Below are positions 61,180-64,000 of a DNA stretch of 64,000 bases, piece by piece. Under the pieces are notes generated by a model. It did not search any database. It saw only the letters and a list, made by a program, of their open reading frames with translations, and had not been told where the DNA came from. The position numbers and the translations under genes are program-made. This DNA comes from Paraglaciecola marina (GTDB taxonomy: Bacteria; Pseudomonadota; Gammaproteobacteria; Enterobacterales; Alteromonadaceae). Where the stretch lies: positions 1-64,000 of the forward strand of contig NZ_SAIS01000012.1 in the NCBI RefSeq assembly GCF_004360155.1, given 5' to 3'. The first letter of the stretch is position 1. Each line of letters opens with the position of its first letter.

Positions 61180-61411
61180 CAGAAGTTACCTTAAAACGCG
61201 AGTATAAAATTTAAGCTTTTTACTAAATTAGTTATTTTGCTTTTTTATTTCTAACCTTTGCTCCATGTAAAAAGCTACTTTTCACTTGAATAAAGCCATT
61301 TACACTCTTAGTTTTTAACTAATACGCCAACTTGAACCTACAAGTGCTTCTCTATACTTTGTGATAGTCACCCTTTTTAATTCCTATGCCCTAAACTCAT
61401 ATACAACCTTT
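61180..61411. other. Intergenic stretch upstream of rplM and bufA
   Basis: This A+T-rich region separates divergent rplM and bufA promoters. I see no open frame longer than a few dozen codons and no clear conserved element between 61180 and 61411. The regulatory repeats near bufA begin at 61412. Confidence 0.5.
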
Positions 61412-61497
61412 ATCTCTAAGTCACATTAGAGATATTTTGCAACGCCACTGAGATTTTTTGAAATTTAACCGAAAGTATAATGGTCTCTAAGTTACAT
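61412..61497 (+). promoter_or_regulatory. Inverted and direct repeats upstream of bufA
   Basis: ATCTCTAA and TTAGAGAT (61412-61419 and 61426-61433) form a perfect inverted repeat around six bases. Its left part, TCTCTAAGTCACAT (61413-61426), recurs as TCTCTAAGTTACAT at 61484-61497, 71 bases later and 65 bases before bufA. This spacing and position suggest binding sites for a regulator or an alternative sigma factor of the bufferin operon. No known consensus is matched with confidence. Confidence 0.5.
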
Positions 61498-61561
61498 AAT
61501 GGACTACATTAACTAAATATTAGCCCATTTCTTTTAACTATATTTACTTAGGATTACATTT

Positions 61562-61915
61562 ATGAAAAACACCAATACCATTAAGTCAGCGTTATTATTA
61601 GGTTGTACTATTGCCGCTTCACAAATAGCCACAGCAAAACCAAATGATCAGTTAACCCTAGCTGAAGCTACACCTGAAAAAATAAAAGTAGCCGTACAAG
61701 AATGGAAAGAAGGTAACAGATTACGTGGCCGTAAAGATAAGTGTTATGGCATTGCATTAGCGGGTGAAAACGACTGTAAAGCAGGAGCAGGCACAAGTTG
61801 TGAAGGTACCTCTACCGTAGATTTTCAAAAAAATGCTTGGACCTACTCACCTAAAGGTTCTTGTGAATTTATCGTTACACCACACGGTGCCGCCTCTAAA
61901 AAGCCCATCGCTTAA
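61562..61915 (+). CDS. bufA: Bufferin-type copper RiPP precursor (DUF2282)
   Basis: This 117-residue precursor has a signal peptide (about residues 1-25, ending IATA) and a DUF2282 core with four Cys at 61, 72, 80 and 101 ([44 protein letters not shown]). In described bufferins the MNIO enzyme converts some core Cys to thiooxazole rings, giving a periplasmic copper buffer; the pairing of individual Cys here is inferred. An AGGA site precedes the ATG. bufB starts 17 bases after its stop codon. The C-terminal tail is about 15 residues past the last Cys. Confidence 0.85.
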
Positions 61916-61932
61916 ATTTATACTGATTTCCA

Positions 61933-62784
61933 ATGCAAGAACTAACTAAATTGCCCGCTACTGCGGGCATTTCTTTAAAGCCAGAATATTTCGACTCTAT
62001 TAACCATTGCTTAGAAAAAAATATGTGGTTTGAGGTACATGCCGAAAACTACCTTATTCAAGGCGGTCCAAGGTTAGAAAGGCTTCAGGATATTGCACGG
62101 GATTTCCCATTAAGTATTCATGGAGTAGGAGCCTCCTTAGGAGGGCCAGAACCGATTAATACAGCACATATAAAACGGCTCACTAACTTACTTAACTTGG
62201 TGCCTACTGCAGCATTCTCTGAACATATTGCTTGGTCTGGAACAGAAGGCAATTATTTGGCTAATCTCATGCCGACCCCAGTGACAACAGAATCCTTAAA
62301 TAATACCGCACATAACATTCAGCAGTTGCAAGAAGCACTTCAAAGACCAATATTAATAGAAAACCCAGCCAACTACCTAAACTTCAAAGGCGACATGTCT
62401 GAGCCTGAATTCATGATGTCTCTAGTCCGAAAAACTGGCTGTGGAATTTTACTCGATGTTAATAACCTTTTCATCAGCGCTAATAACACAGGTATTGACC
62501 CTCAAAGTTATATTGAAAACTTAGACCCAGCATCATTAGGTGAAATACACATTGCAGGCCATTCCACGGATCCCATTGAAAAAGACTTATTAATTGACTC
62601 CCATGACAATGACATATCCAAAGGAGTATGGGACTTATTAGACAAGGCTCTGTCACATATAGGTCCCTGTCCTGTACTTATAGAAAGAGACGCTAATTTG
62701 CCAACCTTCGATGTGCTGCTAAAAGAAAGAAACATGGCACAAAATCGAATTAACGCCCACAAAGAAGTAACCTTACATGAGTGA
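61933..62784 (+). CDS. bufB: MNIO-family (DUF692) precursor-modifying enzyme
   Basis: This 283-residue TIM-barrel enzyme belongs to the multinuclear non-haem iron oxidases (DUF692). The metal-site His, Asp and Glu residues are visible in FEVHAENYL, LSIHGVGASLGG, FSEHIAW, LIENPANYL, LLDVNNLFISANN, EIHIAGHS and LLIDSHDNDIS. With a DUF2063 partner it would oxidise Cys in BufA to thiooxazole. It overlaps bufC by eight bases. Confidence 0.9.
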   Translation: MQELTKLPATAGISLKPEYFDSINHCLEKNMWFEVHAENYLIQGGPRLERLQDIARDFPLSIHGVGASLGGPEPINTAHIKRLTNLLNLVPTAAFSEHIAWSGTEGNYLANLMPTPVTTESLNNTAHNIQQLQEALQRPILIENPANYLNFKGDMSEPEFMMSLVRKTGCGILLDVNNLFISANNTGIDPQSYIENLDPASLGEIHIAGHSTDPIEKDLLIDSHDNDISKGVWDLLDKALSHIGPCPVLIERDANLPTFDVLLKERNMAQNRINAHKEVTLHE

Positions 62785-63517
62785 GTTTCATACCGCACTT
62801 ATAGAATATGTAAAAACTGGAAGCTTAGAAGATATAATGCCACATATATCTGACCTTGAAAGCAAACGTCGCTTAGCCGTTTATCGCAATACCTTCATAA
62901 GCGGCTGCATTGATGGACTCACTAGAAAATACCCTAGTTGTGAGAAGCTATTAGGTGTAAACTTTTTTAAAACACTTGCCCGTGAATTTTCTATTACTAA
63001 TCCGCCTTCTAACCCTGTACTCAATGAATTTGGAGAGATCTTTCCAGAATATATTCGAGATGCACTTCACCAAACGCACCCGGATTTGAGCTATGTCTGG
63101 GATGTATGCCAATTAGACAGAGCTTGGCATCGTGCTTATTTTGCTGCCGAAAAAACGCCCCTCGATGAAGCAGCAATCGAAGCACTCGTAGTTGATATAG
63201 AAAATAAATCTTTGTCGCTGCATCCAAGTGTACAATTAGTAAAACTTGAGTGGGCAGTAACAAGCTTATGGTCACAACTTAGAGATAGTGACCTAAGTGA
63301 AGAAATATCAATCGAAGTCAACCCCAAAACCATTATGGTGTGGCGCGATTCTGAGACTATTTTACACAGAACTTTACTAGCATCGGAAGCGTTATTTATC
63401 AGTAGCATTTATGAAGGTAGAACCTTGGGAGAGTCAGCCGAAATAGCCATGCAAAGTGACGACTTAGATATCAGTAATACCTTTAGCCAACTTCTACTTA
63501 ATAACTTAATAACTTAA
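62777..63517 (+). CDS. bufC: DUF2063 partner protein of the MNIO enzyme
   Basis: This 246-residue protein has the DUF2063 N-terminal domain (ESKRRLAVYRNTFISGCIDGLTRKYP, residues 28-55, and LAREFSITNPPSNPVLNEFGE), which in this family recognises the precursor leader for the DUF692 enzyme. The C-terminal half is less conserved. Its start overlaps bufB, so the two are co-translated. Its last codons lie within an 8-base tandem repeat, so the exact C-terminus depends on repeat number. Confidence 0.88.
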   Translation: MSEFHTALIEYVKTGSLEDIMPHISDLESKRRLAVYRNTFISGCIDGLTRKYPSCEKLLGVNFFKTLAREFSITNPPSNPVLNEFGEIFPEYIRDALHQTHPDLSYVWDVCQLDRAWHRAYFAAEKTPLDEAAIEALVVDIENKSLSLHPSVQLVKLEWAVTSLWSQLRDSDLSEEISIEVNPKTIMVWRDSETILHRTLLASEALFISSIYEGRTLGESAEIAMQSDDLDISNTFSQLLLNNLIT

Positions 63518-63540
63518 TAACTTAATAACTTAATAACTTA
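63496..63540. repeat. 8-base tandem repeat spanning the bufC stop codon
   Basis: Five complete ATAACTTA units (63501-63540) follow a partial unit (ACTTA, 63496-63500). The bufC stop codon is at 63515-63517 within the array, and the array ends 12 bases before the DoxX start. An 8-base unit is not a multiple of three. Confidence 0.9.
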
Positions 63541-63552
63541 AAAGGCACGCAC

Positions 63553-64000
63553 ATGATTAGTTTATACAAGAGCTTAACCGCAAAGCTCAACTTGTACTTA
63601 ACAGACATTACCCTTCTTACAGCTAGACTATTAGCAGCTAATGTTTTTTTTTCATCGGGAATGACCAAGTGGAACGGCTTTCTGAGCTTTAACCCTGAAA
63701 AATACGATCTGTTTCTATATGAGTTTTTCTGCCCAGATCCAATCCGTGAAGGGGCTCTATTATTGTGTGACGCAGAAACTCTAGATTATGTTGAAGGGTC
63801 TTCTATCATCACCTTTATCGAATCCTTAGCGGTTGGCGCGGGAGTAGCAGAGATAGTGTTCCCTATTATGCTAGCGCTAGGTATATTCACCCGCTTAGGT
63901 GCGGCAGGTTTAATTGGAATGACCTTATTTATCCAACTTGCAGTATTCCCAACTTGGGATCATTGGTGGAACCCCGCTGTTTGGTGGTTTGTAACACTAT
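63553..64000 (+). CDS. DoxX family membrane protein (partial, runs off window)
   Basis: The reading frame starts at ATG 63553 and is still open at the window end (149 codons seen). It translates to a DoxX-like membrane protein: LLTARLLAANVFFSSGMTKWNGF at the first helix, then IVFPIMLALGIFTRLGAAGLIGMTLFIQL, and PTWDHWWNPAVWWFV. DoxX genes commonly complete bufABC operons; their role there is unknown. The insert between helices (residues 45-85) contains two Cys (FFCPDP, LLLCDAE). Confidence 0.85.
   Translation, partial: MISLYKSLTAKLNLYLTDITLLTARLLAANVFFSSGMTKWNGFLSFNPEKYDLFLYEFFCPDPIREGALLLCDAETLDYVEGSSIITFIESLAVGAGVAEIVFPIMLALGIFTRLGAAGLIGMTLFIQLAVFPTWDHWWNPAVWWFVTL

Follow-up and report, generated by a model that had tools for sequence, protein, structure and literature searches.

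A type-1 bufferin operon in Paraglaciecola marina

At the right-hand edge of a 64,000-nucleotide stretch of Paraglaciecola marina DNA (contig NZ_SAIS01000012.1, positions 1 to 64,000; hereafter the window) four adjacent genes on the forward strand form, with near certainty on the sequence evidence, a type-1 bufferin (Buf1) operon. These are bufA (61562-61915), encoding a 117-residue precursor; bufB (61933-62784), encoding a 283-residue maturase of the MNIO (DUF692) family; bufC (62777-63517), encoding a 246-residue partner protein of type 1 with DUF2063 and predicted RRE domains; and doxX, whose first 149 of 172 codons (63553-64000) lie in the window. The gene for DoxX is complete in the genome, its stop codon ending at contig position 64071, beyond the window. 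By analogy with the family, the most likely product of the cassette is a bufferin, an exported small protein with cysteines altered to hold copper, and copper buffering is the function that family membership would predict for it. The kind of system is known. What sets it apart from the studied bufferins is its membrane helper protein, DoxX, and what looks like its on-switch: with a two-cysteine insertion in DoxX and NrsF not found in the genome, the operon is not quite a standard Buf1 operon.

A sequence-only reading of the region had proposed a copper RiPP cassette with the bufA-bufB-bufC-doxX layout of the bufferins, and the domain search that it set as a check bore this out, with all four domains above their curated Pfam cut-offs. 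The 117-residue protein, whose similarity to DUF2282 was the point on which that reading hung, matched PF10048 (4.3e-21, 75.1 bits against a cut-off of 22.4). BufB matched MbnB_TglH_ChrH (PF05114, 4.9e-88), BufC matched DUF2063 (PF09836, 1.5e-18) and the last protein matched DoxX (PF07681, 1.3e-11, 45.4 bits against a cut-off of 23.6). Every sequence test applied placed the operon in Buf1. In NCBIfam, BufB scored 325.3 bits against MNIO_BufB (NF050167, equivalog cut-off 310) and stayed under the cut-offs of the HvfB, ApyH, MbnB and ChrH models; BufC and DoxX matched the HvfC and HvfX models alone, both under cut-off, and no NCBIfam model matched the precursor. When the window's four proteins were used as queries, the same gene order was found again in 15 of 21 loci, the window's own counted, and the four-gene arrangement is therefore not due to chance. 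None of the four reading frames is interrupted, and all are conserved, with 63-85% identity to those of Aliiglaciecola sp. 3_MG-2023 (G162). The genome contains a single DUF2282 match and a single MNIO match, and a search of the genome_contigs collection with BufB alone returned no match.

The precursor and its maturation proteins

The signal peptide of BufA (approximately residues 1-25) was read from the sequence as of Sec type, with a basic start, a hydrophobic stretch and an ATA-K site. In 11 aligned precursors residue 25, before the expected cut, is an invariant Ala and residue 23 is nearly always Ala. An extension (residues 26-58) leads to the core, in which Cys61, Cys72, Cys80 and Cys101 are invariant in all 11 precursors, the other ten being 53-85% identical to that of the window. 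All four had been put forward as modification candidates. Their positions stand, but the passages on Buf1 in PMC12452194 describe conversion of only the two central cysteines to thiooxazoles, the first and last forming a disulphide, and the four sites are therefore reduced to two. By this analogy Cys72 and Cys80 are the expected thiooxazole sites, and Cys61 and Cys101 are expected to be joined in a disulphide. A fifth cysteine, Cys15, lies within the signal peptide; it was considered as a lipobox cysteine and rejected, being replaced in relatives. The precursor contains no EGKCG repeats, and a search of the PDB with its sequence returned only two weak, unrelated matches.

For wider comparison 101 loci were gathered, which gave 88 distinct rows once 13 repeats were dropped; one of these (L058), at a contig edge, has no scorable core. 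The second and third cysteines are separated by seven residues in 82 of the 87 scorable rows and by eight in five (L063-L065, L068 and L069), counts that are not informative on Buf1 at large since the loci were gathered with a seven-residue search pattern. The seven-residue spacing without His was tried as a clade trait and dropped, as L167-L179 (10/13 short precursors) share it. Colwellia sp. C2M11 (L121 and L129) has a pair of long Buf1 precursor genes, separated by about 7 kb and both preceded by their own copy of the promoter-like element described below, and no MNIO gene was found beside the second in the stretch examined.

BufB matched the solved MNIO structure 3bww at 4.6e-41; its alignments to TglH and MbnB were weaker. 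Ten of its residues (H63, H98, E143, N144, D175, N178, H206, D222, H224 and E251) are invariant in 18 of 18 sequences, and presumably include the iron ligands. BufC gave no match in the PDB by sequence and chance matches only by profile. Its AlphaFold2 model, built from 34 sequences (mean pLDDT 92.8), matched TglI (8hci, 8hi7) and NGO1945 (3dee) with E values of 5.7e-6 to 1.3e-4 over 226-273 columns; lasso-peptide RRE proteins matched the model at E 2.4 only. The model indicates that BufC has the two-domain fold, DUF2063 plus RRE, given for type-1 MNIO partners in the relevant part of PMC12452194.

A DoxX variant with a conserved cysteine pair

Relative to the 145-residue DoxX of L063 and L064, Buf1 operons of the same family, the DoxX of this operon carries an insertion, ...YDLFxYEFFCPDPxRxGALxLC..., whose two cysteines are spaced as C-x11-C. 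Among the 88 rows doxX was found in 75, of which 59 have the two-cysteine insertion and 16 do not; in the remaining 13 no doxX was found. Both cysteines are invariant in 39 of 39 aligned DoxX proteins, members picked for having the motif. A model of the L101 orthologue (mean pLDDT 94.4) has four long membrane-type helices, and the loop that joins helices one and two, modelled with confidence, holds the cysteines. Basic residues outnumber acidic ones at both ends of the protein, and the reverse holds in the cysteine loop (mean 3.4 basic and 7.9 acidic residues), and the loop is therefore predicted to lie in the periplasm. A Foldseek search with the model gave no match at E <= 0.001, and a profile search of the PDB gave none. 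Comparison by VIA gave Z scores of 12.3 for NACHO, 8.8 for vitamin-K carboxylase and 4.4 for VKOR, values that helical bundles reach by chance, such that any likeness of the modelled fold to these proteins is suggestive at most.

A long precursor accompanies the two-cysteine DoxX in 59 of 59 rows, while the rows without the insertion have 10 short and 6 long precursors; 'long' depends on an automatic choice of start codon, and the alphaproteobacterial L165, L166, L172, L174 and L176 may be misfiled. The link was dropped as independent evidence. The count is real, but in a tree built from the BufB proteins of 45 loci the DoxX trait changes only once (precursor length changes three times, with one independent pair), which therefore points to one lineage and not to repeated co-evolution.

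The passages on DoxX in PMC12452194, PMC10304878 and PMC13097082 make no mention of a two-cysteine form. In the first of these, protection from other stresses is no more than suggested for the DoxX of bufferin operons, and in the second a quinone-linked redox role, in the oxidation of copper, had been proposed for the DoxX-like GigT. That the two-cysteine DoxX does a redox job for the bufferin or its copper is a tentative proposal, which we consider doubtful. With a conserved cysteine pair, predicted to be periplasmic, this natural variant makes the role of DoxX a two-residue question.

A promoter-like element and a candidate sigma factor

A promoter-like element of the extracytoplasmic function (ECF) sigma type, TTGAAAT-N17-GGTCT, precedes bufA at 61458-61486 on the forward strand. 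With no more than one mismatch it was found before bufA in 15 of the 88 rows, from Paraglaciecola (4), Aliiglaciecola (2), Alteromonas, an Alteromonadaceae bin, Colwellia and relatives, Pseudocolwellia, Pseudoalteromonas and Alishewanella, and in each of the 15 none of 60 single-base shuffles gave as good a match. The Alishewanella site, with only about 5 bases between its end and the start codon, is doubtful. When 12 whole genomes were scanned with TGAAAT-N17-GGTCT, a pattern derived from bufA alone, 72 matches were obtained against 32 for the reversed control, with bufA among them in 11 of the 12. These comparisons indicate that the bufA element is real. Sigma-70-like sites around the operon were not in excess (7 found, 10.3 expected). 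A palindrome, ATCTCTAA-N6-TTAGAGAT, at about 61412 was also considered and dropped, being absent when the upstream regions of the nearest operons were aligned; the palindrome stretch has at both ends a direct repeat of 14 bases, TCTCTAAGTNACAT.

Exact elements also occur before MsrA and HAD hydrolase genes in Colwellia G322 and before two thioredoxin-like protein genes in Alteromonas G108. In the window genome one element precedes a metallo-beta-lactamase-fold gene, and three others are intragenic or have no clear downstream gene. A wider regulon behind the element is a lead only, since by the reversed control about half of the matches are expected by chance.

An ECF-driven buf operon has a precedent in Caulobacter, where, according to the part of PMC3511200 that concerns it, the operon is driven by sigmaF, which is held by NrsF. 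No sigma or anti-sigma gene was recognised by eye among the open reading frames neighbouring the present operon. NrsF (PF06532) was found in none of nine genomes that contain the operon of the window or one closely related to it, the window genome included, while the Caulobacter control was positive; in a wider set it was found in 5 of 41 genomes, 4 of them above the cut-off (L160 left out). In 3 of the 12 genomes scanned (G312, G322 and G076) the bufA-derived pattern matched, as an exact element, just before a gene for an ECF sigma factor of NCBIfam PRK12517 (284 bits against a cut-off of 197). Each of the 15 genomes searched for this sigma gene gave a single match, and in three of these genomes no DUF2282 match was found; in the window genome the sigma gene is unlinked to the operon, on another contig (G000:C1:373810-374292). 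The gene that follows it encodes a DUF3379 protein (1.2e-81, in the one genome scanned), and similar proteins follow in the others. On balance we lean towards the PRK12517-family sigma factor as the one that reads the bufA element, and the DUF3379 protein would be its likely anti-sigma factor. Where marine bufferin operons occur in genomes lacking NrsF, the common element offers a candidate for their regulator, and with it a predicted role for the DUF3379 family. No paper on DUF3379, PRK12517 or PF11859, and no earlier description of the two-cysteine variation in DoxX or of a PRK12517/DUF3379 switch, was found in the literature searched.

Several observations weigh against this assignment, and favour a reading in which the same operon is controlled through its element by another sigma factor (e.g. 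RpoE), or by a different copper sensor, the likeness between the two sites being general to ECF promoters or partly due to coding. The GGTCT half is similar to the -10 region of several ECF promoters. Before bufA itself the element, at no more than one mismatch, is missing from 73 of the 88 rows, which include Idiomarina, Alkalimonas, Oceanospirillales and Alphaproteobacteria. Before the sigma gene it is weak in most genomes, with one mismatch in G090, two in the window genome and in G221, G203, G162 and G108 (7-12 of 200 shuffles as good), and three in five other genomes, where 44-78 of 200 shuffles were as good and the match is by that score at chance level; in the congener G009 the best site lies elsewhere than before the sigma gene. 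Moreover, the sigma-side stretch can in most genomes be read in a frame continuous with the sigma gene, and 17 positions of the PRK12517 model precede the Colwellia start, so that this stretch may be coding. A relaxed pattern, GAAA-N18-GGTCTYT, gave 52 matches in 8 genomes (8 in the window genome) and matched both bufA and the sigma gene in 6 of the 8, but its reversed control gave 39, as the control of the bufA-derived pattern had also matched often; the pattern was shaped after the sigma regions had been seen, and the orthologues are not independent. For DUF3379, the anti-sigma role was assigned from its place behind the sigma gene and from one membrane span read by eye. Against the rival reading stand the exact bufA-type elements before the sigma gene in G322, G312 and G076, the lack of an excess of sigma-70-like sites, and the codons of the two boxes. 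The box codons CGA AAG and TCG GTC (4/4) are each a single fixed codon in all nine Paraglaciecola and Aliiglaciecola genomes, compared with 8 of 99 other invariant-residue codons after the anchor, which speaks for selection on the DNA and against mere coding; this test was made after the fact, and AAA and CAA near the sigma start are also fixed. We regard control by another regulator as a serious competitor, somewhat short of an even chance, and the PRK12517-family factor as marginally the better candidate. An inner ATG as the start of the sigma gene in the window genome would leave so little room after the element that the message would be almost leaderless, whereas a start further upstream would place the element inside the gene.

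Proposed mechanism and alternatives

Taken as a whole, the explanation that we hold with high confidence is that of a Buf1 operon, probably gained horizontally; for its working the following course is proposed. Transcription would start at the element at 61458-61486 under the unlinked PRK12517-family sigma factor, with the DUF3379 protein as its likely anti-sigma factor. BufC would hold the precursor through its RRE domain and present it to BufB, which would oxidise Cys72 and Cys80 to 5-thiooxazoles in the cytoplasm. The precursor would then be exported by Sec and cleaved after Ala25, the Cys61-Cys101 disulphide would close, and the product would chelate surplus periplasmic copper. In the inner membrane the two-cysteine DoxX, its cysteine loop facing the periplasm, would serve the product, or its copper, in a redox role. 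Gene content, gene order and families, the fold of BufC (as a model), cysteine conservation, the element, the insertion site and non-monophyly come from the present analysis; thiooxazoles, disulphide, Sec export and copper sequestration are taken over from the pertinent parts of the family literature (PMC12452194, PMC13097082, PMC12538549, PMC3511200, PMC10304878).

A more specific form of the last step makes the two-cysteine DoxX a dedicated quinone-linked thiol oxidase or reductase, acting through the periplasmic C-x11-C loop of a four-helix fold reminiscent of vitamin-K carboxylase and, more faintly, of VKOR, which would close or open Cys61-Cys101 or recycle thiooxazole copper, passing electrons to the quinone pool, with the PRK12517/DUF3379 switch driving the circuit; this we consider unlikely. 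Rechecking the regions upstream of the sigma gene made us a shade less inclined to it than before, and moved the sigma assignment down from reasonably probable to narrowly favoured, while control by another regulator rose from unlikely to its present standing. It is also rather improbable that the product acts mainly against some other stress, such as periplasmic thiol or oxidant damage or another metal, with copper binding secondary. The MsrA, thioredoxin-like and HAD genes behind exact elements would suit such a role, as would the cysteine pair of DoxX and the response of Caulobacter sigmaF to chromium and cadmium recorded in a section of PMC3511200, but those genes belong to relatives and not to the window genome, and the characterised Buf1 and thiooxazole products are tied to copper in the corresponding passages of PMC12452194 and PMC13097082. 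That the operon is intact with its precursor left unmodified in this host, or that the system is decaying, is a very improbable reading. A repeat array, ACTTAATA, crosses the bufC stop and DUF2282 is patchy in the genus, but all four frames are open and conserved, at the identity to Aliiglaciecola G162 given above, and BufB exceeds its equivalog cut-off.

Comparison with known systems

The closest parallel is the Buf1 operon of Caulobacter vibrioides (CC3254-CC3257), which is alike in gene order, the four domain families, the four core cysteines and the Sec signal peptide. By the details given in part of PMC3511200, its precursor has 93 residues, compared with 117 here, where the stretch from signal peptide to first cysteine is longer, and its DoxX (CC3257) has 150 residues, compared with 172 and a two-cysteine insertion here; Caulobacter has NrsF, which was not found in the window genome. 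A linked sigma factor with NrsF occurs in part of the Buf1 clusters and is not obligatory, and doxX is a core gene of many clusters.

The Gig cluster of Cupriavidus metallidurans (gigPABT-rpoQ-rsqA), copper-induced according to the portion of PMC10304878 that describes it, similarly encodes a small exported protein alongside MNIO-like, DUF2063 and DoxX-like proteins. It has a divergent ECF sigma gene and a putative anti-sigma gene beside the operon, whereas the candidate pair of the window genome is on another contig. The oxazolin/fontiphorin systems (HvfABC and FonABC; captophorins) share an MNIO with a DUF2063/RRE partner and thiooxazole chemistry, as outlined in sections of PMC13097082. Captophorin precursors have EGKCG repeats, unlike that of the window, and BufB reached only 218 bits against the HvfB cut-off of 360. 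The pearlin maturase TglHI is alike in the fold of its partner protein (8hci, 8hi7), at only 10-12% identity, but in the account of it in PMC12452194 acts on a C-terminal cysteine added to a scaffold peptide, unlike Buf1.

Origin of the cassette

The operon sits between rplM and an M23-peptidase gene, which are direct neighbours in 8 of 21 congeners; the remaining 13 are uninformative either way, as their rplM falls outside the stretch compared. When both flanks were compared by blastn with these junctions, homology to the 8 congeners stopped at about 61219-61231 and resumed at about 64125, such that some 2.9 kb with the promoter element and the four genes (approximately 61220-64000 within the window) is present here and absent there. 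DUF2282 occurs in 5 of 22 genomes of the genus. In one congener (G004) bufA lies elsewhere, and the rplM/M23 junction carries no operon. BufB of the window is closest to that of Aliiglaciecola G162 (77% identity) and not to those of congeners (47-53%), and a single clade for the four Paraglaciecola BufB proteins was rejected (p-AU 9.9e-53). Horizontal gain is the simplest reading of these comparisons and a probable one; the alternative is that of old copies followed by many losses, for which the unrooted BufB tree leaves room. No integrase was seen by eye among the neighbouring open reading frames, and no short repeats at the cassette ends fitted both breaks. One 14-base pair (93%) lies near the breaks, at 818 and 3672 of L002, and may be due to chance.

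Thirteen congeners without a DUF2282 match (G018, G008, G007 and ten others) have an MNIO gene about 31% identical to BufB, which perhaps belongs to an HvfB-type (EGKCG) system.

Other features of the operon

A 7-bp hairpin, TGCCCGC-N4-GCGGGCA, stands at the start of bufB (61952-61969, forward strand). It came from a scan for terminator-like hairpins, which found 3 in the region against 3.4 expected. The hairpin is kept in five of six operons of the window's BufB subclade (L002, L050, L051, L053 and L054; absent from L057), with paired synonymous changes that give C-G, G-C and A-T at one pair, and could protect or end the bufA message, leaving precursor in excess of enzyme. A tandem repeat with the unit ACTTAATA, in 5.8 perfect copies (63496-63541, forward strand), runs across the stop codon of bufC and some way into the space before doxX; gain or loss of copies would change both the C-terminus of BufC and the distance to doxX. 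In four of the other loci (L122, L137, L141 and L161) a second, more distant MNIO gene lies about 2 kb upstream of the bufferin operon, followed in three of the four by a BufC-like match.

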